Positions 5,253 to 55,873 of a stretch of 64,000 nt of DNA are shown here, piece by piece (the stretch's first letter is position 1; the number at the start of each line of letters is the position of its first letter). The translations under genes were made by a program, and so were the position numbers. Below the pieces are notes generated by a model. It was not told the origin of the DNA. It was given only the letters and a program-made list of their open reading frames with translations, and did no database searches. The DNA is from Bugula neritina (lineage: Eukaryota; Bryozoa; Gymnolaemata; Cheilostomatida; Bugulidae), in the NCBI GenBank assembly GCA_964035545.1, contig OZ037766.1, forward strand, positions 242,001 through 306,000. Reading direction: 5' to 3'.

Positions 5253-8200
5253 TTAGTATTTTATTGTGTATCTCCTCAGTCCATCATCTCTACATGCTAG
5301 AAACACCTTGTCTCTGTTATACACAGCAATGTCACACACCCTGTCACTCACACCAAGACTTTCTCTGGGAATTCTTACCATCAGTTCACCTGCAAATAGA
5401 ATAACACCAGATTGTATCAGTTTGAGACAAACAGACAGACTACAGTGACATCACAACAGCTGACACAACTACATACGGTTTCTACTTTCTAGTATAATAT
5501 AGTAACTGAAATATGTTCAATAATATACCTGCAGCTGCACTTCTACCAGTCAGTATTGAATAATTCACTGAGCTGCTCTACACTTTACTTCATAATAAAT
5601 GACAACATGGAGAGAAGAAACTCAACATACAAACTTAGTGCTCAGCTAATATAATTATAAATAATTACATAATATAAGATATACTCCAACATTATCACAT
5701 ATTAAATACTTGACAAGAACCAACCACAGCCACCTGAGTCCCACCAGCAAACACTGCTCTACCAGCCATCATCAAATTACAATAGTCTCAGTAATGGCAG
5801 TCAAAAAGTATCAAATAATTTATCTTTAAATTATCTGATGACCAAAACAATAGCAGCACTAGACTGAAGTCAAACTACAACTCATAACTCATGTGTAGCT
5901 GGCAGTCTGTACAGTTGTTAGACTGAGCACCTCTAAAATTACTGTAAAACACTTCCATGAAATACTATTTATTATAAATTAGCCTCAGAACCAAGTATTT
6001 ACTAACAATATCATAACATAGCCTGTGATATTACTAGAATAAACTATCACAAAATTGCAATAAAGCAGGGGTGTCTAACCATTTCAGAGAGAGGACCACT
6101 GAAATGGAATATTCCAGTAGGGGGAGCCATTGTAAACTTTAACTTTATTCCAAATTCCTATGACTCATTACACAATGAAGTCCTAATAGTTACTGCAGGC
6201 TGAATGTATGTAGTATGTGTATAAATAAGGCATTTAAAAGGTTGCTTTTTCTACTCTAATTCATATACATGTGTAAAACAATGTTATGTGGGGTATACCT
6301 TTGAGGGCCACATAAATGTATACTGGGGGTCACAACCAGCCCTGGGGCCGCCTGTTGAACAGCCCTGTATTAGAGTAACTAAACTTACTATAATAAACAG
6401 AGTATTTACCTTCAAGTGAGAGGATGAGGAGAGGTCCTCTCTCTGTACAGATGTGAATCAGTTCAGATGTTGGATCAAAGGAAATACCAATTGGTTCTGA
6501 GATGTGAGGGAATTCCCACATCAGAGAGAGAGTTGTGTTCTCCACTTTATATCTTCTCACTTTACCATCTTCAGTGTAGTCTCCTATGAGGAGAGTTGAA
6601 TCTGGGAGGATGCATACAGGACGAGGGAACTTCATCTCAGGAAGTGGGAACTTCTGTGTTTTATTGTCAACTAGATTACAGACTACCAGCTGTTTCTCTC
6701 TCCTGTCTACAATATACACTAGAGAGAGGTGCTGAGCTATTCTATAGGCTGTGAGTTTATCTACTGGATGTTTGTAAATAGAGCGAGACTTCTTAAAAGA
6801 GTTCGGATCAAGAAGTGCGACTTTAGCTGATTTCTCCTTCTTGTTATAACAGCTGGCAACCATCACCCCTTCAGGTTGGATTATCTCCCCCCACACTGTA
6901 GTGTTGGTGTCCTTCACTGAGCTGATAGTATCCAGAGTGTGTCTATTTATTACTTCTACACCTTCTGGTGTCCAACACATGAGATGTCCATCAGCTGAGA
7001 TGTTTACTCTGTAATACCTTCCACGTACAGGAAGTCCATCAGACTGTAGAGAAGCTGGTGGCTGCAGCAGCTTCAGTCCCAGACTGTCTTCACTGTCTGC
7101 AACAACAAAATAACAATTCTATAACTTGAGAATCTCATCACCTGCACAGGTAGAGAGTGTTTTGTTAATACTGACAGCAGGTAGTCAGCATTACACAGTT
7201 TAGCAGCTCACTTATACATCATAAACTCTGAAACACTGCAGAAATGTCTCATAATGTGAGAGTAGAAATAACAAAACTCAATCCTCTAATAAATGTCAAA
7301 ATGAAACGCAGCAACATTTCTAAATATCTGAGACTTTAAAAAAAATTAACGAATGAAATTCAATTGATTTACAAGCAGAAAGTTATTTATAGTTAGTGTT
7401 ACTATTTATAGACTCCACCTACATGTTGGTACCAAGATGCTGTCAGGAAGTACACACTTCTCTATTACACCAATATCTGTAGCCTTTTCCATCTCCTCAC
7501 TCATCTCTTTGTAGTCTCTCACAATCCCTGCATCATTGAACTTATCAACTGCATGTTGTACTCTGTCCACCAGAGACTGTCTGCCTATTGTCTTACTCAA
7601 GGCCAGCTCTATTCTATAATTATCCACTATCTGTGTGCAGCTTTTCAAATATCCATATATTTCTAGCCTCAGGTTTGTAGCTCTCTTTCTAATCTCTTCT
7701 ATCTAATAAATAGTAACACATTATAACCACATCTGCACCTCACAACCTCTACACTTGACATGAGAGTGACAGCTGACAGACCACCCACTGAGTAGACACA
7801 CAGTGACTCAGTCATGTGACACTCTATACACAGTAGACTGCTAGTACATCATGTGACTAGTCTCCTCCTTCTAACAAATCAAGTAGTATACTGAAAGTAT
7901 TGTCTTCAAATAAAAATTAAATAGCCCGAGAGTTTGTGTGGAAAATAGACTGTGCAAAGAAACGTAAATCGTAAACTTCACGTCAGCATACCTGAGCATC
8001 AGCGACAGAGTTTACTCTGGCAACCATCTTCTTCACTTCATCTTCTATTTTACTCAGTTCTTTCCAGGCATCCTTCGAGATGTCATTCAACTCTGCAACT
8101 TTCTCAGACAGAGTCTCTATTCCACCAGTCAGACTTTCTCGTAACTCACAAGACAAATCACTCAATGATGCCATGTCATGGAATGCTGCCTCCCCTTCTG

Positions 8201-9885
8201 TATAAATAATATCACAATATTTCATTAAATCACATTCCTTCTAACAGGATGTGCTGATTGACTCACAGTAGAAGAGCAAACTTACAGAGCAGTTGATATT
8301 AGAAACACTGAGTAACACTACATAAAACATATCAAAAGTATAAATAAAGACATGCTGCCTGAACCCTTGACCTAAGGTATATGTTTAAATCAGCTGGCAG
8401 CACTATCATATGATATTTGTATAATACAGTATAATTATTAAACAGTTGTACTCTGTCTCAAGTATTGCTATCAGAGTTGGTCATAACTCAACCTTCACTA
8501 ACATGACTTGTACAGAGGAATATTCTAGAAACATGTCACTAAATATACATCCCTCACTTGAAGTCATTGAGTTACAGAAATTAAATCAACAGAAACTCCT
8601 CATAAAGGGAACAAAGAAAGTTGAAGATTAGAAATTCCTAAGAATTCAATTCAACAACAGAATATGAATTAATGTCTGCACTAACCACTGCTGTCTCACA
8701 CAAAGTTTAATTTTAGAGAATACATCCGGGTGTGGGCTGTGAAACTTATTTGAAAATAAAATCTTTCACAGAATCTACCCAACAACTAGTCCAAATGGAG
8801 TTGCTAAAACTCACTTTAGTCTCTCACATTGCTACTTTGCTACTGTTAGTCTTAATGAATATAACGTTACATTATTTATTTGGTTTCAATTTGATGTAAA
8901 CAGAAACAAGAAAATACCTGTCTTACCATTACAGCCAGTCTTCATATCACATCTCATACAGAATATCTGGTGACACTTGGAACACACTTCTGTCAGCTGT
9001 TCATGTTTGTGATGTTTACATTCAGTTATAGTATATCTTTGGGGAGAAGCTCTGTAGACCTCAATGTCAATCAACTGATGTCTATCTCCCATCAGCTCTC
9101 TGTGATTCTGTATAATAAAGGTCAACAGTTCAGTTGGTAGTATTTTCACTAACAAGTCTGTCATAGTTGACCTTCTGCATTGTAGAATCTGTTTATTTGG
9201 TATACAAAGTCACACATACTCAGTATTTCTATCTAATAACATTCTACACACAAAACAGTCCTGGTTTAGTAACCAAATACTGATACATGTTTTAAAGACT
9301 CACCTTGTGATGCTGTTCACACAACTTCTTCTGAATCTCTACACAGAAGACTACAGCCTCTGTTCCATCCTCACACACATCACAGAGAATGGGGGGAGGT
9401 TTGGGAGGAGTTTTGTATTCTAGAACATCGCCCAGCTTAGCCACTGGTAGCGTTGTGGGATCAGTGATGTCATAGAATCCCTTTCTAAAATATAGTATTA
9501 GTCAGTGAGTTACAAATAATGAGATAATCAGTGACCTTGAACTTTCATTATGAGAGATTATCCTGATGACTAGACAGCTAGTAACCAGAGTGTGCATGAA
9601 GATACAGAACTGACAGTTTTAAGATAAATACAGTCACTATGAGTGTTAGAGAATAATAATATGCACTCACATAAAACATATCATGTTCATTAGTGCAACT
9701 TACCTGCAGTACACACAGTCGATGTGGGTTTTCTTGTAGCCAATGTCTGTTTTAAGACAATTTATACAATAGACGTGTAAACAGGGCAAAGTTCTGGGAT
9801 CTTCCAGTTTATCAAAATGGTGTAGACAATACCCACATCTATAGGAGTTATTGAGTCTTTTCTTTACTACCCTGGAGTCTGCCAT
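5253..9885 (-). CDS. TRIM-1: RING, B-box, coiled-coil, NHL-propeller protein
   Basis: Seven exons with canonical splice sites: 9885-9704, 9484-9304, 9107-8927, 8197-7992, 7702-7423, 7096-6410 and 5389-5253. They join without a stop into 617 codons. The RING is C3HC4 (C17, C20, C35, H37, C40, C43, C57, C60). B-box 1 runs from C95/C98 through C108 and C116 to H123. B-box 2 has C151, H154, C163, C166, C171 and C174. A charged helical coiled coil spans about 190-320. Residues about 365-617 form six NHL-like blades. The order is that of TRIM-NHL proteins, which act as E3 ubiquitin ligases with the propeller as target binder; the substrate is unknown. ATG 9885 follows a spliced leader (intron 9900-10195) and fits the RING N terminus. 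Variable residues cluster periodically in the propeller. An AATAAA overlaps the last codons. Confidence 0.9.
6066..6367. mobile_element. hAT-like MITE in last intron of TRIM-1
   Basis: The left end CAGGGGTGTCTAAC and the inverted right end CAGGGCTGTTCAAC form short terminal inverted repeats. The right flank is TATTAGAG. In the three other TRIM copies TATTAGAG flanks both ends, a perfect 8-bp target-site duplication as expected for hAT elements. In TRIM-1 the left copy has decayed to CAATAAAG. There is no coding capacity, so it is non-autonomous. Confidence 0.75.
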
Positions 9886-10195
9886 TTTGATTTTGAATTC
9901 TAAAAATAAACAGATGATAATCTAATCATTTGATAAGTGAGAAATAAACACCCAACTCCATTACCACAGTGATAGTAATCTAAGTCCAAGACCTAATAGT
10001 CCTTATAATTTTAATTTAATCTAAACCTCTGCTTTTTCACTTCGAGTTAGCTTCATGCTAAATTATTATCAGAAAACTGTAGAGTAACTATATATATATA
10101 TTTCACGGTTGAATTTTCAGACAACTCAAATTAATCTTACAAATCAGAAATATTCAATGTAAACATAAAATAAACTACTAACCTGATAATTTTAC

Positions 10196-10335
10196 CTTCC
10201 GCTCTAACGCGCTACTAACTGTAGAATGTAGAGAGTAGGAACTGAGAAGATGATGTTGAAATACGAGCAGATTCACGTGGCATTCTATATTCATTATTTT
10301 GATTGGGTGAATTGACCAATCATTATCAAAAGGGT
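10196..10335 (-). promoter_or_regulatory. TRIM-1 5' UTR exon and promoter
   Basis: A donor GAAG|GTAAAA at 10195 pairs with the acceptor TTTTTAG at 9900, giving a non-coding first exon ending at 10196. Upstream on the minus strand lie a CACGTG E-box (10274-10279) and CCAAT motifs in both orientations (10302-10306 and 10316-10320). The arrangement is kept at TRIM-2. The transcription start is not defined. Confidence 0.5.
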
Positions 10336-10661
10336 AGTTAATCAACTGTCCAATCACAGCGTTCACATGAATCCAGCTTCGAGATAATTTGCCAAGTGTA
10401 TGGTTACCTGGTTACCTTCTCCCCAGTCATGAAGCTCTCAGTTACTTTCACCTAGTATCATATAAACAGATTATTTGACAGTATAATGTGCATCTTATTG
10501 AAGTGTAACTTTTAGTGGTATTTAAGTTCAATTCATGCATTAAATTTTGAATCAATAAGCTATTAAAATAAGCTACATTATGGACACGGGGTTATAAGTA
10601 TTGTAGAAATAGTCAATATAACTCTAGACTACATTATATCACATGATAATGTTTATCTCAA

Positions 10662-10757
10662 ATATTATATATTTATATTAAAAGTATTATATATTTATAT
10701 GAAAAGTATTATATATTTATATGAAAAGTATTATATATTTATATGAAAAGTATTATA
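10662..10757. repeat. 22-bp AT-rich tandem repeat
   Basis: About four copies of a unit beginning AAAAGTATTATATATTTATA. At the matching point in units 2-4 the sequence is single copy and continues differently, so the array and the following 1.3 kb are specific to unit 1. Confidence 0.85.
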
Positions 10758-10759
10758 TA

Positions 10760-13030
10760 CAAATACATATACAAATAACATCATCTCAGCTATTCTGTAT
10801 AATTCACATTCCTCAGTGAGAAGATCCGACAAGCATAACTCTAATGAATTCTCTACACTATAGAAATACTGTTGTAGTTTTATACACTACTATTTGGGGT
10901 GTTATTGTATGCTCTAGTAATTACTGCATGTCCACTAGCAGGTTATGTGAAGAAATAGTTGATGCTTAAAGAAAGAACTGCATTGAGATTTTAATTACAT
11001 ATAATCTAGGTCATAGAGAAACTCAATGAACTCAAAAATATTCAACTAAACTAAAGCTAAACTATTTGGCCATGCTAAAACGTCCTTGGCCTCTTCGGGT
11101 CTATTCCAGCTCAGTGGAGAAACTAATGAAAGAGAGTACAAGATGGGAACTATTACACAAGGCTAGCCTCTATCCCTGATAGTTATCGTCTGACTGACAC
11201 TAGGCGCCTGAAGGTGCTGTTTATATCCAAGAGGTTGGTCCTGATTGGTTAGTATATGGTATTGCCGATGCGATGCTGCGGCATCGCTAACGGAGTTGTA
11301 GTCCCTTGGAACATTTAATGCCTCATAATATAATACAAGTACTTAGGTAGGGGGTACTGGGAGGTATACTTGCCGCAGCCACTACAATAATCTTTCACTT
11401 TATTTCATATGAAATTAACATATTATATTACTGAAGGGAGACAATCCCAAAATGAGATTATCTATATGATAGATACTTAGTCAAGTTCTGTTTGATACTG
11501 CATTGTATAGTTTCTAATTAGTCCACTCTACAAAGACACAGAGCCATTTGAGGAGTTGAATATTTATCAAATTGAATATATTATAATGATACTTGTCATG
11601 AACTATCATTGTACCAGTATTCTATTATTAGGAGATATTACTCCAGCATATACATAATATCACTGTATCTTCACAACTTAGCACAGTTTCATATCAGTGT
11701 GTTGTTAGCCTCAGTTCTACAACTTAGTGGAAAGGATTTACTCAGTTACGATGGCTAGAAGTACCTACATGATGTTTATTAATACGAACACATACTACTA
11801 GTATATAATACTACCACGTGACTGTAGAGGAAGTTGGAGAGATGCCAAAATAATGACACAATAACTCTGTTTCCAGTATTTTGTGGAATTTTTTAATCAT
11901 GCATCAGAGGCGTGTCAGGGGGAAGTACGTAAGTCACTGAACTAACTGTAGATACAAACACATACAGTTTACAAATATACCTCTATATTATATACTATGA
12001 GTCATGTAATATAAATAAATACTAATAAATAGTAAATGTATGAAAATATAACATATTAACATCGTATGTTTATACAAACTAAAATGTTTGCTATTAATTT
12101 GCCAATATCCACTAATAGTGTTCAACTTATTGACCTCTTAGTGGTAAATTCTTGTTATATTGTCTATAATCTAGTTGATGTACAGAGATACTTTAGCAAG
12201 GGATGATAACTCCAACATACTCTTTCTCAGTAGGTACATCCCATCTATAATAAACACACAAGTATTATCTACTGACACACTAGTTGAATACAGGTGGGCG
12301 GAGCTTATAGAACCCCTGACAGCCACATTTATATAGTATTAATATCTATAGCAGGTAGTTTCATTTGTTTTCTCATTTAGCAGCATGCGTAGACTGTGTT
12401 CTAAACATTTAAGTCAGCTTAGTGATTATTCTGCAGCAGCAAAGAATAGCGAGCAATAAAAACCAGCAACAGTTACTTCATGCATCTAAACAGATTACAT
12501 AACTATTAGTTTAATTCACTTGATGTCACACTTACCTTGACACAACCACTTTGGAAAAGTAGGAAAACTCTGCGACTGTTGACCACAGACTTCCTTCTTT
12601 GACTGCCCACTAGTGTTGATAATATGCAGTACATTCTACAAGATATAATACATCTGAGTTATTGTAACTTACATGAATACAATATACTTCTGAAATGTGA
12701 AAATACCATCAATACTCACTCATTCCACACAAGGAAATTCACGTGTTAACACAATTAAATACTTTCACTTAAAGCTAAGCTTGATGAACCAATATGAACT
12801 GTTGACAAAGTTTAATCACCTGCGTAGGATTTGCACCTACAATAGTTACATCAAAGCTAAGTGAAAGTCTAACAGTTGATTTATTCTGTTGAAAGTTGAT
12901 GTGTTGAGTATTGATGTTATTACACAACTTCACTCACTTTACTGTAGAGTTTGTTGATGCAAGTTCACTTAATTAAACTCTCCGCACACAGTTCCAAGAG
13001 CACGCAACATGTTTCTTACTAGTTCTATCA
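10760..13030. other. Intergenic, largely unit-1-specific
   Basis: No gene recognised. The stretch 11040-11400 is less AT-rich than its surroundings and has no counterpart in the other units, so it may be an inserted element, but no terminal repeats were found. The stretch 12085-12475 is conserved in all four units and is listed separately. Confidence 0.4.
12085..12475 (-). other. Block conserved in all units; possible terminal exon
   Basis: Recurs at 27385-27775, 42585-42955 and 60010-60395 while neighbouring sequence has drifted or been replaced. On the minus strand, after an AG acceptor at about 12254, a short frame reads WDVPTEKEYVGVII and then PC-stop. The other copies end TC-stop, and one difference (ACT to ACC, Thr) is silent. 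It could be the last exon of an unrecognised minus-strand gene or a non-coding element. No upstream exon was found. Confidence 0.25.
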
Positions 13031-13034
13031 CATG

Positions 13035-13495
13035 ACAGTAGTGACAGCAGGGAACAGTAGTGACAGCAGGGAACACTAGTGACAGCAGTGAACAGTAGTG
13101 ACAGCAGGGAACAGTAGTGACAGCAGGGAACAGTAGTGACAGCAGGGAACACTAGTGACAGCAGGGAACAGTAGTGACAGCAGGGAACAGTAGTGACAGC
13201 AGGGAACAGTAGTGACAGCAGGGAACAGTAGTGACAGCAGGGAACAGTAGTGACAGCAGGGAACAGTAGTGACAGCAGGGAACAGTAGTGACAGCAGGGA
13301 ACACTAGTGACAGCAGGGAACAGTAGTGACAGCAGGGAACAGTAGTGACAGCAGGGAACAGTAGTGACAGCAGGGAACAGTAGTGACAGCAGGGAACAGT
13401 AGTGACAGCAGGGAACAGTAGTGACAGCAGGGAACAGTAGTGACAGCAGGGAACACTAGTGACAGCAGGGAACAGTAGTGACAGCAGGGAACAGG
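13035..13495. repeat. 19-bp minisatellite
   Basis: About 24 near-identical copies of GACAGCAGGGAACAGTAGT, with occasional CACTAGT variants. It sits where the 3' exon of the RCC1 gene would be expected in the duplicated unit. The duplication boundary lies just beyond, near 13718. Confidence 0.95.
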
Positions 13496-14847: not shown

Positions 14848-14868
14848 CTAGAATGAGTCAGCATACCT

Positions 14869-15068: not shown

Positions 15069-15069
15069 G

Positions 15070-17650: not shown

Positions 17651-17656
17651 GAACTG

Positions 17657-17870: not shown

Positions 17871-17899
17871 GGGTGTCAGTAGAGAGCAAGTGAAGGGTT

Positions 17900-18303: not shown

Positions 18304-19645
18304 TTAGTATTTTATTGTGTATCTCCTCAGTCCATCATCCCCACATCCTAGAAACACCTTGTCTCTGTTATACACAGCAATGTCACACACCCTGTCACTC
18401 ACACCAAGACTTTCTCTGGGAATTCTTACCATCAGTTCACCTGTAAATAGAATAACACCAGATTGTATCAGTTTGAGACAAATAGACAGACTACAGTGAC
18501 ATCACAACAGCTGACACAACTACATACAGTTTCTACTTTCTAGTATAATATAGTAACTGAAATATGTTCAATAATATACCTGCAGCTGAACTTCTACCAG
18601 TCAGTATTGAATAATTCACTGAGCTGCTCTACACTTTACTTCATAATAAATGACAACATGGAGAGAAGAAACTCAACATACAAACTTAGTGCTCAGCTAA
18701 TATAATTATAAATAATTACATAATATAAGATGTACTCCAACATTATCACATATTAAATACTTGACAAGAACCAACCACAGCCACCTGAGTCCCACCAGCA
18801 AACACTGCTCTACCAGCCATCATCAAATTACAATAGTCTCAGTAATGGCAGTCAAAAAGTATCAAATTATTTATCTTTAAATTATCTGATGACCAAAACA
18901 ATAGCAGCACTAGACTGAAGTCAAACTACAACTCATAACTCATGTGTAGCTGGCAGTCTGTACAGTTGTTAGACTGAGCACCTCTAAAAGTACTGTAAAA
19001 CACTTCCATGAAATACTAATTATTGCCAGTACTAATTAGACATATAATATAGCCTATGAGTGGAAGTTGTTTACAGATAATAATCATTTATCACAATATT
19101 GTATTAGAGCAGAGGGGGGGGGGCTGTCTAAATATTTCAGAGCAAAGGCCACTGAAATGGAATATTCTGGTAGGGAGGGCCACACTGTAAACTTTAGTGC
19201 AGTGTGGTATATTTAAGACTGTTGCCATTAGCAAATCTTACGGAATCATATGGGCGCCATTATGCCGAGATTGGTACCGCGAGTTTATATAAGTTATAAA
19301 GGAAAAATTTTGCCACTTTTGTTATTTTATTTTTTTTCTATTTTATGTGTACATTTTTTTAATTTTTTTATTGGTAAAGTTTTTAAACACATTTTTAATG
19401 CACATAAAATTAAAAGAAAAATTAAAACTCAATCATGCACATAAATACAAAGCTATAAAGTTAAAGCTTCGCTGTGATTTTAATGTGAATATGAATTGAA
19501 TAATGCTTGCAATAACCATTATACACAAAATACGTTACAGTTGCTATAAATGCAAGACTAGTTAATTGGATGCAAATAGGCACGGTAATACTACTTAATT
19601 TATGCTATTTTTGAATTTTGTAGTAAATATTTGGCATGTATATAT

Positions 19646-19728
<83 letters not shown>

Positions 19729-19967
19729 TATTATATATATATAATATATAATATTATTATATGTATATATATATATATTATATATAATATCATTATATAT
19801 ATAATGTATATAATTTAATATATAATATAATAATATATTATATATGATATTATTATATATATAATATAATATATAATATAATAATATATTATATATATTA
19901 TATATGATATTATTATATAAATATAATATATAATATATATATAATATAACAATATATAATATATTAT

Positions 19968-20041
<74 letters not shown>

Positions 20042-23000
20042 CATGCCGAATATTTACTACAAATTTCAAAAATGGCATAAATTAAATAGTATTACCGTGC
20101 CTATTTGCATCCAATTTACTAGTCTTACATTTATAGCAACTGTAACGTATTTTGTGTAAAATGGTTATTGCAAGCATTATTCAATTCATATTCACATTGT
20201 AATCACAGCGAAGCTTAGACTTTATAGCTTTGTATTTACGTGCACGATTAAGTTTTAATTTTTTTTAAAATTTTTAAATGTATTGAAAATATGTTTAAAA
20301 ACTTTACCAATAAACAAAACTAAAAAAAAATGGACACATAAAAAAAAAAAATAAAATTACAAAATTGGCAAAATTTTTCCTTTATAACTTATATAAACTT
20401 GCGGTACCATTAGCGACATAATGATTTTTTATGGTTTAAAGTCAACACTTTTAAATATACCACACTGCTTTAGTGTAAGCTGCAGGTCACAGTATCAGTA
20501 TTTTTCAAACTGCTTTATGCTAAACTCCAATGACTCATTACACAATGAAGTCCGAACAGTTACTGCAGGCTGCATGTATGTAGTATGTGTATAAATATGG
20601 CATTTAAAATGTTGCTTTTTTTACTCTAATTCATATACATGTGTAAAACAATGTTATGTGGGGTATACCTTTGAGGGCCACATAAATGTATACTGGGGGT
20701 CACAACCAGCCCTGGGGCCGCCTGTTGAACAGCCCTGTATTAGAGTAATTAAATTTACTATAATAAACACAGTATTTACCTTCAAGTGAGAGGATGAGGA
20801 GAGGTCCTTTCCTTGTACAAATGTGAATCAGTTCAGATGTTGGATCAAAGGAAATACCAGTTGGTCGTGAGATGTGAGGGAATTCCCACATCAGAGTGAG
20901 AGTTGTGTTCTCCACTTTATATCTTCTCACTTTACCATCTGCAGTGTAGTCTCCTATGAGGAGAGTTGAGTCTGGGAGGATGCATACAGGATAAGGGTTC
21001 TTCATCTCAGGAAGTGGGAACTTCTGTATTTTATTGTCAACTAGATTATAGACTACCAGCTGTTTCTCTCTCCAGTCTACAATATACACCAGAGAGAGGT
21101 GCTGAGCTATACTATAGTAAGTGAGTTTATCTACTGAATGTTTGTAGAGAGAACGAGACTTCTTAAAGGAGTTCGGATCAAGAAGTGCGACTTCAGCTGA
21201 TTTCTCCTTCTTGTTATACCAGCTGCCAACCATCACCCCTTCAGGTTGGATTATCTCCAACCACAGTGTAGTGTTGGTGTCCTTCACTAAGCTGATAGTA
21301 TCCAGAGTGTGTCTATTTATTACATCTACACCTTCTGGTGTCCGACACATGAGATGTCCATCAGCTGAGATGTTTACTGTCCAACACTTTCCACGTACAG
21401 GAAGTCCATCAGACTGTAGAGAAGCTGGTGGCTGCAGCAGCTTCAGTCCCAGACTGTCTTCACTGTCTGCAACAACAAAAAAACAATTCTATAACTTGAG
21501 AATCTCATCACCTGCACAGGTAGAGAGTGTTTCGTTAATACTGACAGCAGGTAGTCAGCATAACACAGTTTAGCAGCTCACTTATACATCATAAACTCTG
21601 AAACACTGCAGAAATGCCTCATAATGTGAGAGTAGAAATAACAAAACTCAATCCTCTAATAAATGTCAACATGAAACGCAGCAACATTTCTAAATATCTG
21701 AGACTTTAAAATAAAATTCAAATTGATTGCAAGCAGAAAGTTATTTATAATTAGTGTTACTATTTATAGACTCCACCTACATGTGGGTACCAAGATGCTG
21801 TCAGGAAGTACACACTTCTCTATTACACCAATATCTGTAGCCTTTTCCATCTCCTCACTCATCTCTTTGTAGTCTCTCACAATCCCTGCATCATTGAACT
21901 TATCAACTGCATGTTGTACTCTGTCCACCAGAGACTGTCTGCCCATTGTCTTACTCAAGGCCAGCTCTATTCTATAATTATCCACTATCTGTGTGCAGCT
22001 TTTCAAATATCCATATATTTCTAGTCTCAGGTTTGTAGCTCTCTTTCTAATCTCTTCTATCTAATAAATAGTAACACATTATAACCACATCTGCACCTCA
22101 CAACCTCTACACTTGACATGAGAGTGACAGCTGACAGACCACCCACTGAGTAGACACACAGTGACTCAGTCTTGTGACACTCTATACACAGCAGACTGCT
22201 AGTACATCATGTGACTAGTCTCCTCCTTCAAACAAATAAAGTAGTATACTGAAAGTATTGTCTTCAAACACAAATTAAATGGCCCGAGAGTTTGTGTGAA
22301 AAATAGACTGTGCAAAGAAACATAAATCATAAATTTCACGTCAGCATACCTGAGCATCAGCGACAGCGTTTACTCTGGCAACCATCTTCTTCACTTCATC
22401 TTCTATTATACTCAGTTCTTTCCAGGCATCCTTAGAGATGTCATTCAACTCTGCAACTTTCTCAGACAGAGTCTCTATTCCACCAGTCAGACTTTCTCGT
22501 AACTCACAAGACAAATCACTCAATGATGTCATGTCATGGAATGCTGCCTTCCCTTCTGTATAAATAATATCACAATATTTCATTAAACTACATTCCTTTT
22601 AACAGAATGTGCTGATTGACTCACAGTAGAAGAGCAAACTTTCAGGGCAGTTGATATTAGAAAAACACTGAGTAACACTACAGAAAACATATCAAAAGTA
22701 TAAATAAAGACATGCTGCCTGAACCCTTGACCTAAGGTATATGTTTAAATTAGCTGGCAGCACTATCATATGATATTTGTATAATACAGTATAATTATTA
22801 AACAGTTGTACTCTGTCTCAAGTATTGCTATCAGAGTTGGTCATAACTCAACCTTCACTAACATGACTTGTACAGAGGAACATTCTAGAAACATGTCACT
22901 AAATATACATCCCTCACTTGAAGTCATTGAGTTACAGAAATTAAACCAACAGAAACTCCTCATAAAGGAAACAAAGAAAGTTGAAGATTAGAAATTCCTA

Positions 23001-24599
23001 AGAATTCAACTCAACAACAGAATATGAATTAATGTCTGCACTAACCACTGCTGTCTCACACAAAGTTTAATTTTAGAGAATACATCCAGGTGTGGGCTGT
23101 GAAATTTAACTTATTTGGAAAGAAAATCTTTCACAGAATATACCCAACAACTAGTCCAAATGGAGTTGCTATAACTCACTTTAGTCACTCACATTGTTAC
23201 TTTGCTACTGTTAGTGTTAGCCTAGGGCCACACTGTGCGTATTTTCGCATGCGAAAATTGAAACCACAAGTAGCAAAGGTGTCCACTGTAGGGTCAGTGA
23301 TGCGTGATAAATAAAGCTTTCATTTTTAAGTCGAACTCGCTTTCAATAAAACGCAATTTACTGGAATGTAGGGCTAAAATAAAGAAATTGGGCTCGCTTA
23401 ATAACTACCAGCCAATTAGGTGACGACGACAGAGACGATTCGCACTTGCGTTGAAAATGCAGAGCGACAAGTGCGAACATTTTCTCAACGCGCACAGTGG
23501 ACACCTTTGCTACTTGTGATTTCAATTTTCGCATGTGAAAATACGCACCGTGTGGCCCTAGGCTTACTGAATATAAAGTTACATTATTTATTTGGTTTCA
23601 ATTTGATGTAAACAGAAACAAGAAAATACCTGTCTTACCATTACAGCCAGTCTTCATATCACAGCTCATACAGAATATCTGGTGACAATTGGAACACACT
23701 TCTGTTAGCTGTTCATGTTTGTGATGTTTACATTCAGTTATAGTATATCTTTGGGGAGAAGCTCTGTAGACCTCAATGTCAATCAACTGATGTCTATCTC
23801 CCATCAGCTCTCTGTGATTCTGTATAATAAAGGTCAACAGTTCAGTTGGTAGTATTTTCACTAACAAGTCTGTCATAGTTGACCTTCTGCATTGTGAAAT
23901 CTGTTTATTTGGTATACAAAGTCACACATACTCAGTATTTCTATCTAATAACATTCTACACAAAACAGTCCTGGTTTAGTAACCAAATACTGATACACGT
24001 TTTAAAGACTCACTTTGTGATGCTGTTCACACAACTTCTTCTGAATCTCTACACAGAAGACTACAGCCTCTGTTCCATCCTCACACACATCGCAGAGAAT
24101 GGGTGCAGGTTTGGGAGGAGTTTTGTATTCTAGAACATCACCTAACTTAGCCACTGGTAGAGTTGTGGGATCAGTGATGTCATAGAATCCCTTCCTAAAA
24201 TATAGTATTAGTCAGTGAGCTACAAATAATGAGATAATCAGTAACCTTGAACTTTCATTATGAGAGATTATCCTGATGACTAGATAGCTAGTAACCAGAG
24301 TGTGCATGAAGATACAGAACTGGCAGTTTTAAGATAAATACAGTCACTATGAGTGTTACAGAATAATAATAATATGCACTCAGATAAAAAGATATCAAGT
24401 TCAGTAGTGCAACTTACCTGCAGTACGCACAGTCAATGTGGGTTTTCTTGTGGCCAATGTCTGTTTTAAGACAATTTATACAATAGACGTGTAAACAGGG
24501 CAGAGTTCTGGGATCTTCCAGTTTATCAAAATGGTGTAGACAATACCCACATCTATAGGAATTATTGAGTCTTTTCTTTACTACCCTGGAGTCTGCCAT
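18304..24599 (-). CDS. TRIM-2: RING, B-box, coiled-coil, NHL-propeller protein
   Basis: Exons 24599-24418, 24194-24014, 23819-23639, 22555-22350, 22060-21781, 21466-20780 and 18440-18304 have the same lengths and phases as TRIM-1 and join into 617 uninterrupted codons. RING, both B-boxes and the coiled coil are nearly identical to TRIM-1. In the propeller the changes concentrate at the periodic variable sites: 370-373 are KCWT instead of RYYR, 411/413 are L/L, 475 is W, 500/502 are N/Y and 562-563 are RK. The exon 2 donor is AAA|GTGAGT where TRIM-1 has AAG|GTGAGT, both Lys. Intron 3 carries a MITE (23220-23563) and intron 6 carries nested hAT-like elements (19110-20737). The coding sequence is unaffected, so the gene is probably functional. 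Confidence 0.9.
19200..20467. mobile_element. Foldback hAT-like element nested in the older MITE
   Basis: Ends are CAGTGTGGTATATTTAA and its inverted complement. An 8-bp target duplication CTTTAGTG lies on both sides (19192-19199 and 20468-20475). Arms of about 430 bp (19200-19635 and 20040-20467) are near-complementary along their length, separated by an AT-dinucleotide core. TRIM-3 and TRIM-4 keep the empty site with a single CTTTAGTG, proving insertion after duplication. No transposase frame is visible. Confidence 0.85.
19637..20040. repeat. AT-dinucleotide core of the foldback element
   Basis: About 400 bp of (TA)n and TATAATATTA variants between the inverted arms, self-complementary and prone to cruciform formation. 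The minus-strand open frame of Ile and Tyr codons is an artefact. Confidence 0.95.
23220..23563. mobile_element. PIF/Harbinger-like MITE in TRIM-2 intron 3
   Basis: Terminal inverted repeats of about 65 bp begin GCCTAGGGCCACACTGTGCG on the left and match the inverted right end with few changes. The flanking 3-bp direct repeat TTA (23217-23219 and 23564-23566) is typical of PIF/Harbinger elements. TRIM-1 has the uninterrupted site with a single TTA near 8855. There is no coding capacity. Confidence 0.8.
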
Positions 24600-26765: not shown

Positions 26766-26770
26766 AAACT

Positions 26771-34916: not shown

Positions 34917-37900
34917 TTAGTATTTTATTGTGTATCTCCTCAGTCCATCATCTCTACATCCTAGAAACACCTCATCTCTGTTATACACAGCAATGTCCAA
35001 CACCCAGTCACTCACACCAAGACTTTCTCTGGGAATTCTTACCAGCAGTTCACCTGTAAATAGAATAACACCAGATTGTATCAGTTTGAGACAAACAGAC
35101 AGACTACAGTGACATCACAACAGCTGACACAACTACATACGGTTTCTACTTTCTAGTATAATATAGTAACTGAAATATGTTCAATAATATACCTGCAGCT
35201 GCACTTCTACCAGTCAGTATTGAATAATTCACTGAGCTGCTCTACTCTTTACTTCATAATAAATGACAACATGGAGAGAAGAAACTCAACATACAAACTT
35301 AGTGCTCAGCTAATATAATTATAAATAATTACATAATATAAGATGTACTCCAACATTATCACATATTAAATACTTGACAAGAACCAACCACAGCCACCTG
35401 AGTCCCACCAGCAAACACTGCTCTACCAGCCATCATCAAATTACAATAGTCTCAGTAATGGCAGTCAAAAAGTATCAAATTATTTATCTTTAAATTATCT
35501 GATGACCAAAACAATAGCAGCACTAGACTGAAGTCAAACTACAACTCATAACTCATGTGTAGCTGGCAGTCTGTACAGTTGTTAGACTGAGCACCTCTAA
35601 AATTACTGTAAAACACTTCCATGAAATACCAACTATTGCCAGTACTAATTAGACATATAATATAGCCTATGAGTGGAAGTTGTTTACAGATAATAATAAG
35701 TTATCACAATATTGTATTAGAGCAGGGGGAGGGGGGGGGGGGCTGTCTAACTATTTCAGAGCAAAGGCCACTGAAATGGAATAATCTAGTAGGAAGGGCA
35801 TATTGTAAACTTTAGTGTAAGCTGCAGGTCACAGTATCAGTATTTTTCAAACTGCTTTATGCTAAACTCCTATGACTCATACATAATGAAGTCCTAATAG
35901 TTACTGCAGGCTGAATGTATGTAGTATGTGTATAAATATGGCATTTAAAATGTTGCTTCTCTACTCTAATTCATATACATGTGTAAAACAATGTTATGTG
36001 GGGTATACCTTTGAGGGGCACATAAATGTAGGCTGGGGGTCACAACCAGCCCTGGGGCCGCCTGTTGAACAGCACTGTATTAGAGTAACTAAACTTACTA
36101 TAATAGACACAGTATTTACCTTCAAGTGAGAGGATGAGGAGAGGTCCTAACCCTGTACAGATGTGAATCAGTTCCGATGTTGGATCAAAGGAAATACCAG
36201 TTGGTTCTGAGATGTGAGGGAATTCCCACATCAGAGTGAGAGTTGTGTTCTCCACTTTATATCTTCTCACTTTACCATCTTCAGTGAAGTCTCCTATGAG
36301 GAGAGTTGAGTCTGGGAGGATGCATACAGGTATAGGGTACTTCATCTCAGGAAGTGGGAACTTCTGTATTTTATTGTCAACTAGATTATAGACTACCAGC
36401 TGTTTCTCTCTGCAGTCTACAATATACACTAGAGAGAGGTGCTGAGCTAAACAATAGTGAGTCTGTTCATCTACTGAATGTTTGTACAGAGAGCGAGACT
36501 TCTTAAAGGAGTTCGGATCAAGAAGTGCGACTTCAGCTGATTTCTCCTTCTTGTTATAGCAGCTGCCAACCATCACCCCTTCAGGTTGGATTATCTCCAC
36601 CCACCATGTAGTGTTGGTGTCCTTCACTGAGCTGATAGTATCCAGAGTGTGTCTATTTATTACTTCTACACCTTCTGGTGTCCCACACATGAGATGTCCA
36701 TCAGCTGAGATGTTTACTCTCCCACACCTTCCACGTACAGGAAGTCCATCAAACTGTAGAGAAGCTGGTGGCTGCAGCAGCTTCAGTCCCAGACTGTCTT
36801 CACTGTCTGCAACAACAAAATAACAATTCTATAACTTAAGAATCTCATCACCTGCACAGGTAGAGAGTGTTTTGTTAATACTGACAGCAGGTAGTCAGCA
36901 TAACACAGTTTAGCAGCTCACTTATACATCATAAACTCTGAAACACTGCAGAAATGTCTCATAATGTGAGAGTAGAAATAACACAAGTTAATATTCTAAT
37001 CACTAATGAATATCGACATAAAATACACAAACTTAATTTTTTACTTGTCAGCTTCCAAAGCTGAACTATTTGAGAAAAAAAGCTTATCAAAACCTGCAAG
37101 TGGAAAGCTGTGAATAAATTCTGAATTTGTGGTGATGAATTCTGTTTAATAATTCTACATACTTGCAGATGCCAGGAATTTGCGAGGAACAGAACATTTC
37201 TCTATCATGCTGATGTCTAAAGCCTTTTCTATCTTCTCACTCATCTCTTTGTAGTCTCTCACAATGCCTGCATCATTGAACTTATCAACTGCATGTTGTA
37301 CTCTGTCCACCAGAGACAACTTATCAACACCATGTTTCACTGCCAGGTCATATCTATAATTAACCACCATCTCTGTGCTGCTTCTCAGATATTCTGATAA
37401 TTCATCCTTCAGTTCCTCACCTCTCTTTCTAATCTCTTCTATCTAATAAATAGTAACACATTATAACCACATCTGCACCTCACAACCTCTACACTTGACA
37501 TGAGAGTGACAGCTGACAGACCACCCACTGAGTAGACACACAGTGACTCAGTCATGTGACACTCTATACACAGTAGACTGCTAGTACATCACGTGACTAG
37601 TCTCCTCCTCCTTCCTGTCAATCACTCACACAGCCAACCTCCCTGTGTGAGTGATTGACAGTTGCAGAAGGATGAGTGAGTCACCTGTATTGACAGGTTC
37701 ACCTGCACTGAGTGTCACGTGATGAATGACTACTGCTACTTGTACACAGAATGGTGATGGTTTAATGGCTGCCGATTTCTGAGTACATATGAAGTTTTGT
37801 ACTGCAGCATAACATTAGAGAATTAACACATAGTATGAAGTCTTCCTTACAATAGCTATACATATTATAATAAATACATAGTTTCTTGGAATGGGAGAAA

Positions 37901-39390
37901 CATTACGTAATAGTTATCTATATTCTCTACAAACATGTCTGCCAACCTTTGCATTAACTGTAGCATATACTCTGGCAAACATCTTCTTCACATCATCTTC
38001 TATTTCACTCAGCTGTCTCCAGGCATCCTTTGAGATGTCATCCAACTCTGAAATCTTCTCAGACAGAATCTTCATTTCCTCAGTCAGTTTGTCTCTCAGC
38101 TCACGGGATAAATCATTCAACGATGTTACGTTGTGAGAAGCTGCTTTTCTCTCTGAAATAATATTCAAGTATTTACCTCAAGACATTCAGTGTATCGTTA
38201 CCTTAGACTGAGTTCTATTCATGTGGCTACACAGGAACACATGCTATTCTCATTTAAACTAAGATATGCTTTCTCAAACTTGGTGGATGTTATAAACAGC
38301 CAAAGTTAGAAAAGTGAAAGAATGAAATCACCTGCCACTTTTCCACATCCTCTCTTAGAGTCACACCGAATACAGAATCTCTGGTGACACCGAGAACACG
38401 CCTCCATCAGCTGATGGTGTTCATGATGTTCACAGTTAGTAACGGAGTAACGCTGTGGAGATGCTGTGTAGAGGTCAATGGGAACAAACTGGTGTGTAGT
38501 GTTCATGTAAGTCTTCAAGTGTGTTTCATGGTTCTGACAACAGAAAACATGGTTGAATCATGAATCACAGCTAGTAGGTTGGTGCTTGCATATAAGTTAC
38601 TGATAGTCAGGTTGACAGTACTAGATGGTATATAATGTAAGGTGATAACAGCAGCACAGAGGACTGTGTGCTGTACTATACACACCGACAGACACACAGA
38701 CATACAGCCATGACATATCTCTGTCTTTCCTGAGACTAGAAGAGAATTCTACAGTATAACTCATCAGTATGTCCCGTACTAGTAGCTACAGTCAACACAC
38801 AACTCACCTGCTGATGCTGTTCACACAACTTCTTCTCACTCTCTACACAGAAGACTACAGCTTCTGTTCCATCCTCACACACATCACAGAGAATGGGTGG
38901 AGGTTTGGGAGGAGCTTTGTATTCTAGAACATCACCCAGCTTAGCCACTGGTAGAGTTGTGGGATCCGTGATGTCATAGAATTCCTTACTGCAAACAAAA
39001 TTTCATAGAAGTTGTATTCATTAAATGTTTCACCAACAAGTTTTTTTAGCTTCAGCGTACCTTAATTTTGACATAGTTTGTCCAACAATTCAATACAGCA
39101 ATTAGTAATATACAAATCTAATCACTTGTTCAGAGAATTGATTACTGTGTTACATATTGGAAATTATAAACAGTAAGTTATATTGTTTGTGGGCTGACAG
39201 TAACTCACCCACAATATGCACACTTGATGTGATCTTTCCTGTAGCCAATATCTGTCTGCAAACACCTCATACAGTAGACATGTAGACAGGGCAGGGTTCT
39301 GGGATCTCCTAAATTGTTGAACTGCTGGTTGCAGTATCCACATCTGTATGAGTCATTGAGCTTTCTCTTGATTATTCTAGAATCTGCCAT
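34917..39390 (-). CDS. TRIM-3: RING, B-box, coiled-coil, NHL-propeller protein
   Basis: Exons 39390-39209, 38988-38808, 38533-38332, 38152-37947, 37442-37163, 36806-36120 and 35053-34917 give 624 uninterrupted codons. Exon 3 is 21 bp longer than in TRIM-1. RING spacing is identical to TRIM-1, but about a quarter of N-terminal residues differ (for example NQQFNNLGDPRT and MRCLQTDIGYRKDH), which defines a second subtype shared with TRIM-4. The exon 4 donor is the weak GTTGGC, as in TRIM-4. The propeller framework matches TRIM-1 and TRIM-2 closely, while the variable sites are unique: RCGR in blade 1, WWVE, VDEQTHYCL, IVDC, KYPIP, CTGLG and SDWVLD. The end of exon 5 (EKCSVPRKFLASA) differs from the other three copies. 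Confidence 0.9.
35723..36077. mobile_element. hAT-like MITE in TRIM-3 intron 6
   Basis: Perfect TATTAGAG target duplications at 35715-35722 and 36078-36085. The ends are CAGGGGG with an expanded G run, and the inverted CAGTGCTGTTCAAC. The body retains the empty CTTTAGTG site used by the foldback element in TRIM-2. Confidence 0.85.
37615..37661. other. Perfect 19-bp hairpin in TRIM-3 intron 4
   Basis: CTGTCAATCACTCACACAG, a 9-nt loop, then its exact reverse complement. It is conserved without change in TRIM-4 (54160-54206) and absent from TRIM-1 and TRIM-2. It may be a relic of a tiny foldback element or a structured RNA. Confidence 0.8.
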
Positions 39391-51499: not shown

Positions 51500-54400
51500 T
51501 TAGTATTTTATTGTGTATCTCCTCAGTCCATCATCTCTACATGCTAGAATCACCTTGTCTCTGTTATACACAGCAATGTCACACACCCAGCTACTCACAC
51601 CAAGACTTTCTCTGGGAATTCTTACCAGCAGTTCACCTGTAAATAGAATAACACCAGATTGTATCAGTTTGAGACAAACAGACAGACTACAGTGACATCA
51701 CAACAGCTGACACAACTACATGCAGTTTCTACTTTCTAGTATAATATAGTAACTGAAATATGTTCAATAATATACCTGCAGCTGCACTTCTACCAGTCAG
51801 TATTGAATAATTCACTGAGCTGCTCTACTCCTTACTTCATAATAAATGACAACATGGAGAGAAGAAACTCAACATACAAACTTAGTGCTCAGCTAATATA
51901 ATTATAAATAATTACATAATATAAGATATACTCCAACATTATCACATATTAAATACTTGACAAGAACCAACCACAGCCACCTGAGTCCCACCAGCAAACA
52001 CTGCTCTACCAGCCATCATCAAATTACAATAGTCTCAGTAATGCCAGTCAAAAATTATCAAATTATTTATCTTTAAATTATCTGATGACCAAAACAATAG
52101 CAGCACTAGACTGAAGTCAAACTACAACTCATAACTCATGTGTAGCTGGCAGTCTGTACAGTTGTTAGACTGAGCACCTCTAAAATTACTGTAAAACACT
52201 TCCATGAAATACTAACTATCGCCAGTACTAATTAGACATATAATATAGCCTATGAGTGGAAGTTGTTTACAGATAATAATAAGTTATCACAATATTGTAT
52301 TAGAGCAGGGGGGGAGGGGGGCTGTCTAAATATTTCAGAGCAAAGGTCACTGAAATGGAATATTCTAGTAGGGAGGGCCACATTGTAAACTTTAGTGTAA
52401 GCTGCAGGTCACAGTATCAGTACTTTTCAAATAACTTTATTCCAAATTCCTATGACTCATTACATAATGAAGTCCTAATAGTTACTGCAGGCTGAATGTA
52501 TGTAGTATGTGCATAAATATGGCATTTAAAAAGCGATGTTTTCACTACAATTCACATACATGCGTGAAATGACTTTGTATTGGCCTTTGAGAGGCACATA
52601 AATGTAGGCTGGGGGTCACAACCAGCCCTGGGGTCGCCTGTTGAACAGCCCTGTATTAGAGTAACTAAACTTACTATAATAAACAGAGTATTTACCTTCA
52701 AGTGAGAGGATGAGGAGAGGTCCTTCCAGTGTACAGATGTGAATCAGTTCAGATGTTGGATCAAAGGAAATACCAGTTGGTTCTGAGATGTGAGGGAATT
52801 CCCACATCAGAGTGAGAGTTGTGTTCTCCACTTTATATCTTCTCACTTTACCATCTTCAGTGCAGTCTCCTATAAGGAGAGTTGAGTCTGGGAGGATGCA
52901 TACAGGGTCAGGGTACTTATTCTCAGGAAGTGGAAACTTCTGTATTTTATTGTCAACTAGATTATAGACTACCAGCTGTTTCTCTCTCCTGTCTACAATA
53001 TACACTAGAGAGAGGTGCTGAGCTATTCTATAGGCTATGAGTCCATCTACTGAATGTTTGTAGAGAGAGCGAGACTTCTCAAAGGAGTTCGGATCAAGAA
53101 GTGCGATTTCAGCTGATTTCTCCTTCTTGTTATAACAGCTGCCAACCATCACCCCTTCAGGTTGGATTATCTCCCCCCACACTGTAGTGTTGGTGTCCTT
53201 CACTGAGCTGATAGTATTCAGAGTGTGTCTATTTATTACTTCTACACCTTCTGGTGTCACACACATGAGATGTCCATCAGCTGAGATGTCTACTGTCCCA
53301 CACTTTCCACGTACAGGAAGTCCATCAGACTGTAGAGAAGATGGTGGCTGCAGCAGCTTCAGTCCCAGACTGTCTTCACTGTCTGCAACAACAAAATAAC
53401 AATTCTATAACTTGAGAATCTCATCACCTGCACAGGTAGAGAGTGTTTTGTTAATACTGACAGCAGGTAGTCAGCATAACACAGTTTAGTAGCTCACTTA
53501 TACATCATAAACTCTGAAACACTGCAGAAATGTCTCATAATGTGAGAGTAGAAATAACAAAACTCAATCCTCTAATAAATGTCAACATGAAACGCAGCAA
53601 CATTTCTAAATATCTGAGACTTTAAAAAAATTAACGAATGAAATTCAATTGATTTACAAGCAGAAAGTTATTTATAGTTAGTGTTACTATTTATAGACTC
53701 CACCTACATGTTGGTACCAAGATGCTGTCAGGAAGTACACACTTCTCTATTACACCAATATCTGTAGCCTTTTCCATCTCCTCACTCATCTCTTTGTAGT
53801 CTCTCACAATGCCTGCATCATTGAACTTATCAACTGCATGTTGTACTCTGTCCACCAGAGACTGTCTGCCCATTATCTTACTCAAGGCCAGGTCATATCT
53901 ATAATTAACCACCATCTCTGTGCTGCTTCTCAGATATTCTGATAATTCATCCTTCAGTTCCTCACCTCTCTTTCTAATCTCTTCTATCTAATAAATAGTA
54001 ACACATTATAACCACATCTGCACCTCACAACCTCTACACTTGACATGAGAGTGACAGCTGACAGACCACCCACTGAATAGACACACAGTGACTCAGTCAT
54101 GTGACACTCTATACACAGTAGACTGCTAGTACATCATGTGACTAGTCTCCTCCTCCTTCCTGTCAATCACTCACACAGCCAACCTCCCTGTGTGAGTGAT
54201 TGACAGTTGCAGAAGGATGAGTGAGTCATCTGTATTGACAGGTTCACCTGCACTGAGTGTCACGTGATGAATGACTACTGCTACTTGTACACAGAATGGT
54301 GATGGTTTAATGGCTGCCGATTTCTGAGTACATATGAAGTTTTGTACTGCAGCATAACATTAGAGAATTAGACTACACAGTTTTACTCTAAATAGTAGTT

Positions 54401-55873
54401 ATCTATATTCTCTACAAACATGTCTGCCAACCTTTGCATTAACTGTAGCATATACTCTGGCAAACATCTTCTTCACATCATCTTCTATCTCACTCAGCTG
54501 TCTCCAGGCATTCTTTGATATGTCATTCAACTCTGAAATCTTCTCAGACAGAATCTTCATTTCCTCAGTCAGTTTGTCTCTCAGCTCACGGGATAAATCA
54601 TTCAACGATGTTACGTTGTGAGAAGCTGCTTTTCTCCCTGAAATAATATTCAAGTATTTACCTCAAGACATTCAGTGTATCGTTACCTTAGACTGAGTTC
54701 TATTCATGTGGCTACACAGGAACACATGCTACTCTCATTTAAACTTAGATATGCTTTCTCAAACTCGGTGGATGTTATAAACAGCTAAAGTTAGAGAAGT
54801 GAAAGAAAGAAATCACCTGCCACTTTTCCACATCCACTCTTAGAGTCACACCGAATACAGAATCTCTGGTGACACTGAGAACACGCCTCTATCAGCTGAT
54901 GGTGTTCATGATGTTCACAGTTAGTAACGGAGTAACGCTGTGGAGATGCTGTGTAGAGGTCAATGGGAACAAACTGGTGTGTAGTGTTCATGTAAGTCTT
55001 CAAGTGTGCTTCATGGTTCTAACAACAGAAAACATGGTTGAATCATGAATCACAGCTAGTAGGTTGGTGCTTGCATATAAGGTATTGATAGTCAGGTTGA
55101 CAGTACTAGATGGTATATAATGTAAGGTGATAACAGCAGCACAGAAGACAGTGTGCTGTACTATACACACCGACAGACACACAGACATACAGCCATGACA
55201 TATCTCTGTCTTTCCTGAGACTAGAAGAGAATTCTACAGTATAACTCATCAGTATGTCCTGTACTAGTAGCTACAGTCAACACACAACTCACCTGCTGAT
55301 GCTGTTCACACAACTTCTTCTCACTCTCCACACAGAAGACTACAGCCTCTGTTCCATCCTCACACACATCACAGAGAATGGGTGTAGGTTTGGGAGGAGT
55401 TTTGTATTCTAGAACATCACCCAGCTTAGCCACTGGTAGAGTTGTGGGATCCGTGATGTCATAGAATTGCTTACTGCAAACAAAATTTCATAGAAGTTGT
55501 ATTCAATAAATGACTCACAAAAAGGTTTTTTACTTCAGCGTACCTTAATTTTGACATAGTTTGTCCAACAATTCAATACAGCAATCAGTAATATACAAAT
55601 CTAATCACTTGTTCAGAGAATTGATTACTGTGTTACATATTGGAAATTATAAACAGTAAGTCATATTGTTTGTGGGCTGACAGTAACTCACCCACAATAT
55701 GCACACTTGATGTGATCTTTCCTGTAGCCAATATCTGTCTGCAAACACCTCATACAGTAGACATGTAGACAGGGCAGGGTTCTGGGATCTCCTAAATTGT
55801 TGAAATGCTGGTTGCAGTATCCACATCTGTATGAGTCATTGAGCTTTCTCTTGATTATTCTAGAATCTGCCAT
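51500..55873 (-). CDS. TRIM-4: RING, B-box, coiled-coil, NHL-propeller protein
   Basis: Exons 55873-55692, 55473-55293, 55018-54817, 54637-54432, 53987-53708, 53382-52696 and 51636-51500 give 624 uninterrupted codons. Exons 1-4 are almost identical to TRIM-3. Exon 5 switches identity: its first part matches TRIM-3 (MVVNYRYDLA) and its second part matches TRIM-1/2 (GRQSLVDR through EKCVLPDSILVPT). Intron 5 also follows TRIM-1/2. The gene is thus a recombinant. The propeller has its own variable set: KCGT, MCVTPEG, VDGLIAYRI, NKYPDP, GDCTED, CTLEG and SSWVCD. All metal-binding residues of RING and B-boxes are present. Confidence 0.9.
52306..52653. mobile_element. hAT-like MITE in TRIM-4 intron 6
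   Basis: Perfect TATTAGAG target duplications at 52298-52305 and 52654-52661. A G-rich left end and an inverted CAGGGCTGTTCAAC right end. It retains the empty CTTTAGTG site. Confidence 0.85.
54160..54206. other. Perfect 19-bp hairpin in TRIM-4 intron 4
   Basis: Identical to 37615-37661, with the same loop CCAACCTCC. Confidence 0.8.

Follow-up and report, generated by a model that had tools for sequence, protein, structure and literature searches.

A hypervariable propeller face in an expanded family of predicted TRIM ubiquitin ligases of the bryozoan Bugula neritina

The stretch of the Bugula neritina genome analysed here, 64,000 nucleotides of contig OZ037766.1 (positions 242,001 to 306,000 of assembly GCA_964035545.1; referred to as the window), carries on its minus strand four intact genes, TRIM-1 to TRIM-4, each with seven exons, without any stop and with a RING, B-box, coiled-coil and propeller organisation (Table 1). 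The joining of the seven exons into one protein per gene is predicted, intron ends being GT/AG wherever a junction was checked, and exon 3 of TRIM-2 was located by similarity only. An earlier note made from the letters alone had described four TRIM paralogues with hypervariable positions recurring from blade to blade; all four are present, but rather than being a set of four they belong to a larger family of about 90 copies. The residues it had listed are found as described (385 W/R/G/V, 502 R/Y/I/D, 475 R/W/C/R and 562-563 ER/RK/GL/LE, in TRIM-1 numbering). All residues given below follow TRIM-4, the numbers of which equal those of TRIM-1 plus seven.

Table 1. Positions of the TRIM genes, their exons and the in-frame parts of their propeller exons in the window
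Feature	Position	Strand	Remark
TRIM-4 gene	51500..55873	-	624 aa; introns GT/AG
TRIM-4 exons	55873-55692, 55473-55293, 55018-54817, 54637-54432, 53987-53708, 53382-52696, 51636-51500	-	first, RING; sixth, blades 1-5; seventh, blade 6 and stop
TRIM-4 propeller exon, in-frame part	52697..53380	-	used for alignment, site tests and model
TRIM-3 gene	34917..39390	-	
TRIM-3 exons	39390-39209, 38988-38808, 38533-38332, 38152-37947, 37442-37163, 36806-36120, 35053-34917	-	
TRIM-3 propeller exon, in-frame part	36121..36804	-	
TRIM-2 gene	18304..24599	-	
TRIM-2 exons	24599-24418, 24194-24014, about 23819-23630, 22555-22350, 22060-21781, 21466-20780, 18440-18304	-	third by similarity
TRIM-2 propeller exon, in-frame part	20781..21464	-	
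TRIM-1 gene	5253..9885	-	
TRIM-1 exons	9885-9704, 9484-9304, 9107-8918, 8197-7992, 7702-7423, 7096-6410, 5389-5253	-	
TRIM-1 propeller exon, in-frame part	6411..7094	-	

The domain layout that had been proposed is backed by sequence for the N-terminal part and by the predicted fold for the propeller. Residues 16-318 of TRIM-4 match the RING/B-box/coiled-coil (RBCC) region of TRIM28 in phmmer (E 8.1e-9), with RING, B-box(es) and coiled coil in this order, and the RING alone matches TRIM2/56/32. The RING exons read show the C3HC4 pattern, the Pfam RING score of TRIM-4 being 22.4 bits and thus below the cut-off of 25.2. By their sequence, the genes are predicted E3 ubiquitin ligases. The C terminus is predicted to fold into a six-bladed NHL-type propeller: the model, which spans blades 1-5, is confident and close to TRIM-NHL domains, its nearest solved folds being TRIM-NHL proteins (TRIM2/3/71, Brat, LIN41, Mei-P26, Thin). 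A Pfam scan of TRIM-4 gave no match to NHL (PF01436), NACHT or WD40 at E<=1, and no match to filamin or SPRY, the propeller standing in place of B30.2/SPRY; a membrane-spanning stretch was looked for in TRIM-4 and not found. Database searches with full-length TRIM-4 and with residues 352-624 returned no relatives at E 0.001 and 0.01, respectively, using a method that needs shared five-residue words.

We searched the propeller exon against the same genome and, as 146 of 247 candidates were scored, the resulting counts are lower bounds. This count of further paralogues, suggested in the earlier note, yielded at least 90 near-full-length matches at 63% identity or more, of which 14 were flagged with stops (in one, L013, the stop lies beyond the aligned part). 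Contig C8 (chromosome 8) holds 63 of the 90, almost all of them in the stretch from 4 kb to 4.7 Mb, the others being spread over C2, C3, C1, C4, C5, C6 and C9; the window spans four of six neighbouring copies at C2:248-325 kb. We aligned 70 exons, i.e. the best 72 matches minus two with a stop (C8:3797593 and C8:2339708), matches 73-90 not being included; all 70 have open frames and encode distinct proteins. Large arrays close to contig starts, as seen on C8, C2 and C1, would suit a family engaged in genomic or reproductive conflict, either in gamete recognition or as a selfish drive element. However, the C3 array lies mid-contig, the layout is that of a TRIM-type ligase lacking a membrane-spanning stretch, and nothing specific speaks for such a role, which we consider extremely unlikely.

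Defining hot codons as those with an amino-acid entropy of 1.9 bits or more among the 70 exons, we obtained 16: 377, 379, 392, 394, 418, 420, 436, 464, 482, 507, 509, 524, 526, 551, 569 and 570. The D-A and B-C strand connections of beta-propellers make up the top face, and in the predicted model all 16 hot codons fall on these connections of successive blades (eight on each), none on A-B or C-D, against a background of 106 of 203 positions (P 2e-5; face labels were taken from DSSP topology, not from coordinates). The same holds for most codons picked out by the site test described below, 35 of the 43 within blades lying at D-A/B-C connections and eight elsewhere (posterior >=0.95). Many hot codons occur in pairs two residues apart (377/379, 392/394, 418/420, 507/509, 524/526), as expected since the side chains would then point the same way. 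Exon 7, available from 25 proteins, adds two hot spots, 595-598 and 613-614, accompanied by slight differences in length, so that the periodicity claimed for six blades is borne out by five blades in exon 6 and the sixth in exon 7. In one C8 copy (L018; exon 7 at locus positions 396-532, minus strand), a stop interrupts blade 6 within its second hot spot, close to the C-terminal end.

Brat and LIN41 bind RNA through the top face, a charged surface in NHL domains (PMC9070667, PMC9634614; here and below, papers are cited for the passages available). Because the variation falls on this face, foreign RNA is a serious alternative target, and the top face might bind foreign or transposon RNA that the ligase then silences or marks. 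Hot sites being rich in arginine (17%) and tryptophan (11%) agrees with such an RNA-directed defence, but they also include glutamate (9%), valine, leucine and glycine and have no fixed positive residue; we consider this defence rather improbable. Individual hot sites use restricted palettes of residues.

The N-terminal exons behave differently from the propeller exon. The RING exon has 102 matches in the genome at 68% identity or more, 53 of them equal in score, and 14 of the 16 copies read encode the same protein. Fifteen of these 16 come from C8 and one from C3; in the C8 set, 2, 1 and 10 columns vary at codon positions 1, 2 and 3, a sign of purifying selection. Exons 2-5 (from 15, 15, 15 and 16 of 16 C8 genes) contain 2, 1, 0 and 0 highly variable residue columns, compared to 25 in exon 6 of the 16 genes.

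One-face hypervariability recurs independently in a second TRIM-propeller family. Its 33 copies, all stop-free, lie at C8:6.63-7.21 Mb with RING exons nearby and share about 25% identity with the first family; we sampled 15 of them (L104-L118). Among its interior variable columns, 17 of 19 lie within two residues of first-family sites (background 70/203, P 3e-7), or 12 of 13 when the last loop is left out. In its own model (predicted local distance difference test score, pLDDT, 80.7), 19 of 20 variable columns fall on D-A/B-C connections (background 101/199, P 1.1e-5); this count omits six N-terminal columns with low pLDDT and one C-terminal column from the total of 27 hypervariable columns, and 7 of the 20 lie in one loop of uncertain alignment. 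A third related set is found at C8:9.31-9.42 Mb; its 11 near-full-length copies share 44-57% identity with the second family, and two of them have a stop.

The site-wise comparison of replacement and silent rates (dN/dS) suggested in the earlier note was run as a FUBAR-like grid test in our own implementation, i.e. not with HyPhy or PAML. Over 228 codons of exon 6 the overall dN/dS is 1.68; 46 codons have dN>dS at a posterior of 0.95 or more and 67 have dN<dS at 0.9 or more, and the gain against a model lacking positive selection (twice the difference in log-likelihood) is 391. With a tree made without the hot codons, 45 of 228 codons reach the 0.95 level, among them 15 of the 16 hot codons, with a gain of 425, whereas five null simulations yielded 0, 0, 0, 2 and 2 passing codons and gains of 0.3-7.2. 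Recombination inflates such tests and, since the copies recombine, tree-free measures weigh more.

These tree-free measures point the same way. Base diversity at hot codons is 0.50 at position 1 and 0.58 at position 2, which is 11- to 13-fold above the 0.044 at fourfold third bases of invariant residues; it is raised partly by definition because hot codons were chosen by amino-acid entropy, a circularity from which the face mapping and the third-base, RING and second-family results are free. As a further yardstick we used intron 6 of the 26 of 30 loci with usable intron 6 and exon 7 (325 pairs). Among the 176 pairs picked for an intron difference below 6%, intron diversity is 0.039, that of other exon bases 0.043 and that of hot bases 1-2 0.52, about 13-fold above the intron. 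Over all 325 pairs the values are 0.16, 0.055 and 0.54, intron 6 having diverged more than the exon backbone between distant groups. Silent fourfold third-base diversity is alike at hot codons (0.042) and other codons (0.047), from which it follows that hot codons are not local mutation hot spots, and we reject this explanation.

In the absence of any selection, relaxed constraint, gene conversion and a wrong tree would together have inflated dN/dS, and recombination among the copies is indeed strong. Mere relaxed constraint is rejected by the open frames, the tree-free contrasts, the variability by exon and the RING and second-family results, and the excess of hot-base diversity over fourfold and intron yardsticks together with the restriction of variable sites to one face in two families leaves an origin without selection largely refuted and exceedingly improbable. 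The near-identical pairs L060/L061 and L084/L088 differ in the aligned exon solely at single hot codons, and L020/L030, with 0 differences in 1034 intron 6 positions, differ at nine codons of which three are hot; one pair, L038/L059, speaks against diversification centred on the face, differing at six codons none of which is hot. The site tests, the neutral yardsticks, the mapping onto the structure and the second family give strong support to diversifying selection on one propeller face, as proposed in the earlier note.

How the variants are distributed was studied in 52 C8 copies. Common non-hot variants 1-2 bases apart are linked with an r2 of 0.33, which drops to 0.034 at 30-60 bases and is 0.022-0.049 over longer distances (unlinked sites should give 0.020), and the four-gamete rule is broken in 590 of 666 pairs. 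Chromosomal distance matters little: in the 20 pairs of copies separated by less than 60 kb, 0.110 of the backbone and 0.72 of the hot codons differ, compared to 0.125 and 0.81 for copies 2-5 Mb apart. Hot variation is uncorrelated between blades (r <=0.08) and weakly correlated with that of the backbone (r -0.01 to 0.25). The array is much like a freely recombining population within one genome, variants assorting near-freely among copies over 4.4 Mb as judged from the assembled sequence. We read this pattern as frequent short-tract conversion between loci combined with selection for a diverse face. Movement of multi-codon patches as the sole source of variation is weakly supported, since hot codons close to each other show hardly any linkage (mean z 1.7 in six pairs 1-3 codons apart; r2 0.014 for 12 pairs at 3-10 bases), notwithstanding the triplet TTG, GAC and TCA at 377, 379 and 380 that co-occurs in both L020 and L094.

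At codons 392, 418, 507 and 526, the third base took no step, compared to 2.7-8.8 expected under equally favoured replacements (none of 40 simulations being as low), whereas bases 1-2 took 14-27, 19-25, 18-19 and 7-24 steps. The expected values are somewhat too high because the fourfold rate in the simulations was roughly double that observed (2.07 vs 1.07 steps), and at codons 436, 482, 509 and 551 third-base changes exceed expectation. The frozen third bases may result from selection for particular residues or might reflect a position-directed process not targeting a single base. In the variable regions of diversity-generating retroelements, changes are limited to one template base, adenine. 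Here, the bases conserved to at least 97% within three nucleotides of hot bases are 15 G, 15 A, 12 C and 9 T, and base-specific mutagenesis of this kind is rejected, all four letters being frozen beside hot bases. A directed process in the germline would randomise bases 1-2 of chosen codons, selection merely filtering the outcome; apart from the frozen third bases, the weak linkage of hot bases 1-2 apart (mean r2 0.11 in 15 pairs, against 0.33 in eight pairs of other common variants) is in line with it. However, neither the four frozen letters nor the equal fourfold diversity fits, the third-base expectation is inflated, and the restricted palettes agree with amino-acid selection plus shuffling, so that we regard directed diversification as highly unlikely.

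Further features of the region concern gene structure and surroundings. In all four genes the exon-6 frame reads through the splice site into intron 6 and reaches a common end, FNRRPQGWL (window 6330, 20700, 36040 and 52616); a shorter protein from retention of intron 6 is possible. Between TRIM-1/2 (window 5253-24599) and TRIM-4 (of the pair at 34917-55873), DNA identity is about 73-81% in exons 1, 3 and 4 where aligned, yet exons 2 and 6 are 95% and 94% identical, mosaic N-termini suggesting exchange between lineages. The intergenic spacers contain minisatellites with 12-, 19-, 23- and 38-base units (window 13035-13494, 26770-27025, 30343-31036, 41674-42205, 44571-45982, 58261-59644 and 62105-63100), and 12-, 17-, 23- and 38-base units are shared by more than one spacer, as expected from segmental duplication. 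A strongly diverged RING exon (43% identity) and propeller exon (25%) are found on the plus strand some 10 kb to the left of the window (C2:229103-232774). By its COI (COX1) sequence, the genome is that of Bugula neritina and not of a sponge. Elsewhere in the assembly, additional COX1 matches were seen at C6:11174072 (nearly equal to the mitochondrial one), on C17 (without TGA codons), C65, C196 and C4; the C6 match is perhaps a nuclear copy or an assembly matter, and the extra matches may partly derive from other organisms.

These results are best accommodated by a model according to which the genes form a germline repertoire of cytosolic TRIM-NHL E3 ligases whose NHL top face is diversified by selection, with variants exchanged through short conversion tracts; the repertoire would most likely be directed at intracellular pathogens. 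Its structural and evolutionary part is well supported; the model as a whole we hold to be probable, though far from certain. The top face would bind a variety of rapidly changing ligands, the most likely ones being intracellular-pathogen proteins or RNA, and the RING would then ubiquitinate the bound target or signal. Selection would favour copies differing at the face, and short interlocus conversion tracts would homogenise the backbone while reassorting the face variants. The coiled coil, which dimerises in other TRIMs, should form dimers, and two faces would therefore act together. As TRIM-4 has no membrane-spanning stretch, an intracellular target is favoured, most simply viruses or intracellular bacteria. 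A recognition-ligase role is suggested by the coupling of a near-invariant RING to a hypervariable face, a combination shared with TRIM5 and fish finTRIMs (PMC3137616), the logic of which would be retained with an NHL-type propeller replacing B30.2.

The function in immunity or allorecognition that the earlier note considered would be served differently if the face were to read polymorphic self labels on contact of colonies or larvae, as fungal HET-D/HET-E read HET-C. We think such allorecognition or kin recognition quite improbable: without a membrane-spanning stretch TRIM-4 would not by itself meet partners at the cell surface, where to our knowledge the known animal allorecognition receptors reside, and dozens of copies per genome fit a repertoire better than one- or two-locus labels. 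It draws weight from the fusion and self/non-self discrimination of bryozoans and from the kin recognition reported in Bugula neritina larvae (PMC11686985), as well as from the similar arrangement of fungal HNWD propellers, with few hypervariable positions per blade (PMC12222747). A bolder extension of the pathogen-directed repertoire, which is conceivable but on the whole unlikely, would be an anticipatory lophotrochozoan repertoire built on the NHL-type propeller, in which several families share the principle, face codons are assorted near-independently by micro-conversion or a position-directed germline process, and each genome holds its own combinatorial set of faces on one near-invariant ligase.

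Diversified TRIM recognition through B30.2 and hypervariable propellers in fungal NLRs were already known; here the marks of a recognition repertoire are borne by an NHL-type propeller, a domain familiar mainly from RNA-binding proteins of development, with the RING near-identical in the C8 copies read. Bryozoan immunity and allorecognition genes seem little studied and the TRIM family is a concrete candidate system, its multi-megabase array making testable how a backbone stays alike while the binding face differs strongly. Among the papers listed in our literature searches (2 to 20 of up to 2,384 per search, with few subscription papers), none reported hypervariable NHL domains or a bryozoan TRIM expansion. 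The passages covered of the B. neritina genome paper mention weak similarities to Alr1 but not TRIM genes (PMC7576161).

Several known systems share individual features with this family. The TRIM-NHL proteins named above have the same combination of RING, B-box, coiled coil and NHL-type propeller but are conserved regulators with one or few per genome, TRIM2/3/71 carrying a filamin domain, whereas the bryozoan family is large and diversified and TRIM-4 gave no filamin match. C1q and SRCR are secreted or surface recognition domains. Expansions of such candidate recognition genes have been described for C1q in bivalves (PMC6835236) and SRCR in sponges (PMC10855680), which unlike the genes reported here do not encode ubiquitin ligases. 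The analogy with fungal WD40 NLRs drawn in the earlier note is a good one: in the HNWD proteins HET-D and HET-E few positions per repeat are hypervariable on the interaction surface with concerted evolution elsewhere (PMC12222747), and in both systems a beta-propeller varies at few positions per blade on one face; however, HNWD proteins are NLRs with near-identical WD40 repeats in one protein, whereas here the blades are diverged and the variation lies between RING-protein paralogues. In fish finTRIM/BTR/HLTR and primate TRIM5alpha, lineage-specific TRIM expansion combines a conserved RBCC with a hypervariable, positively selected C-terminal domain, viruses being thought by the authors to drive finTRIM-type diversification (PMC3137616). 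The bryozoan genes likewise form an expanded family with a hypervariable, positively selected face that would mediate recognition, placed not on B30.2/SPRY loops but on the face of a propeller with its hot spots arranged blade by blade.

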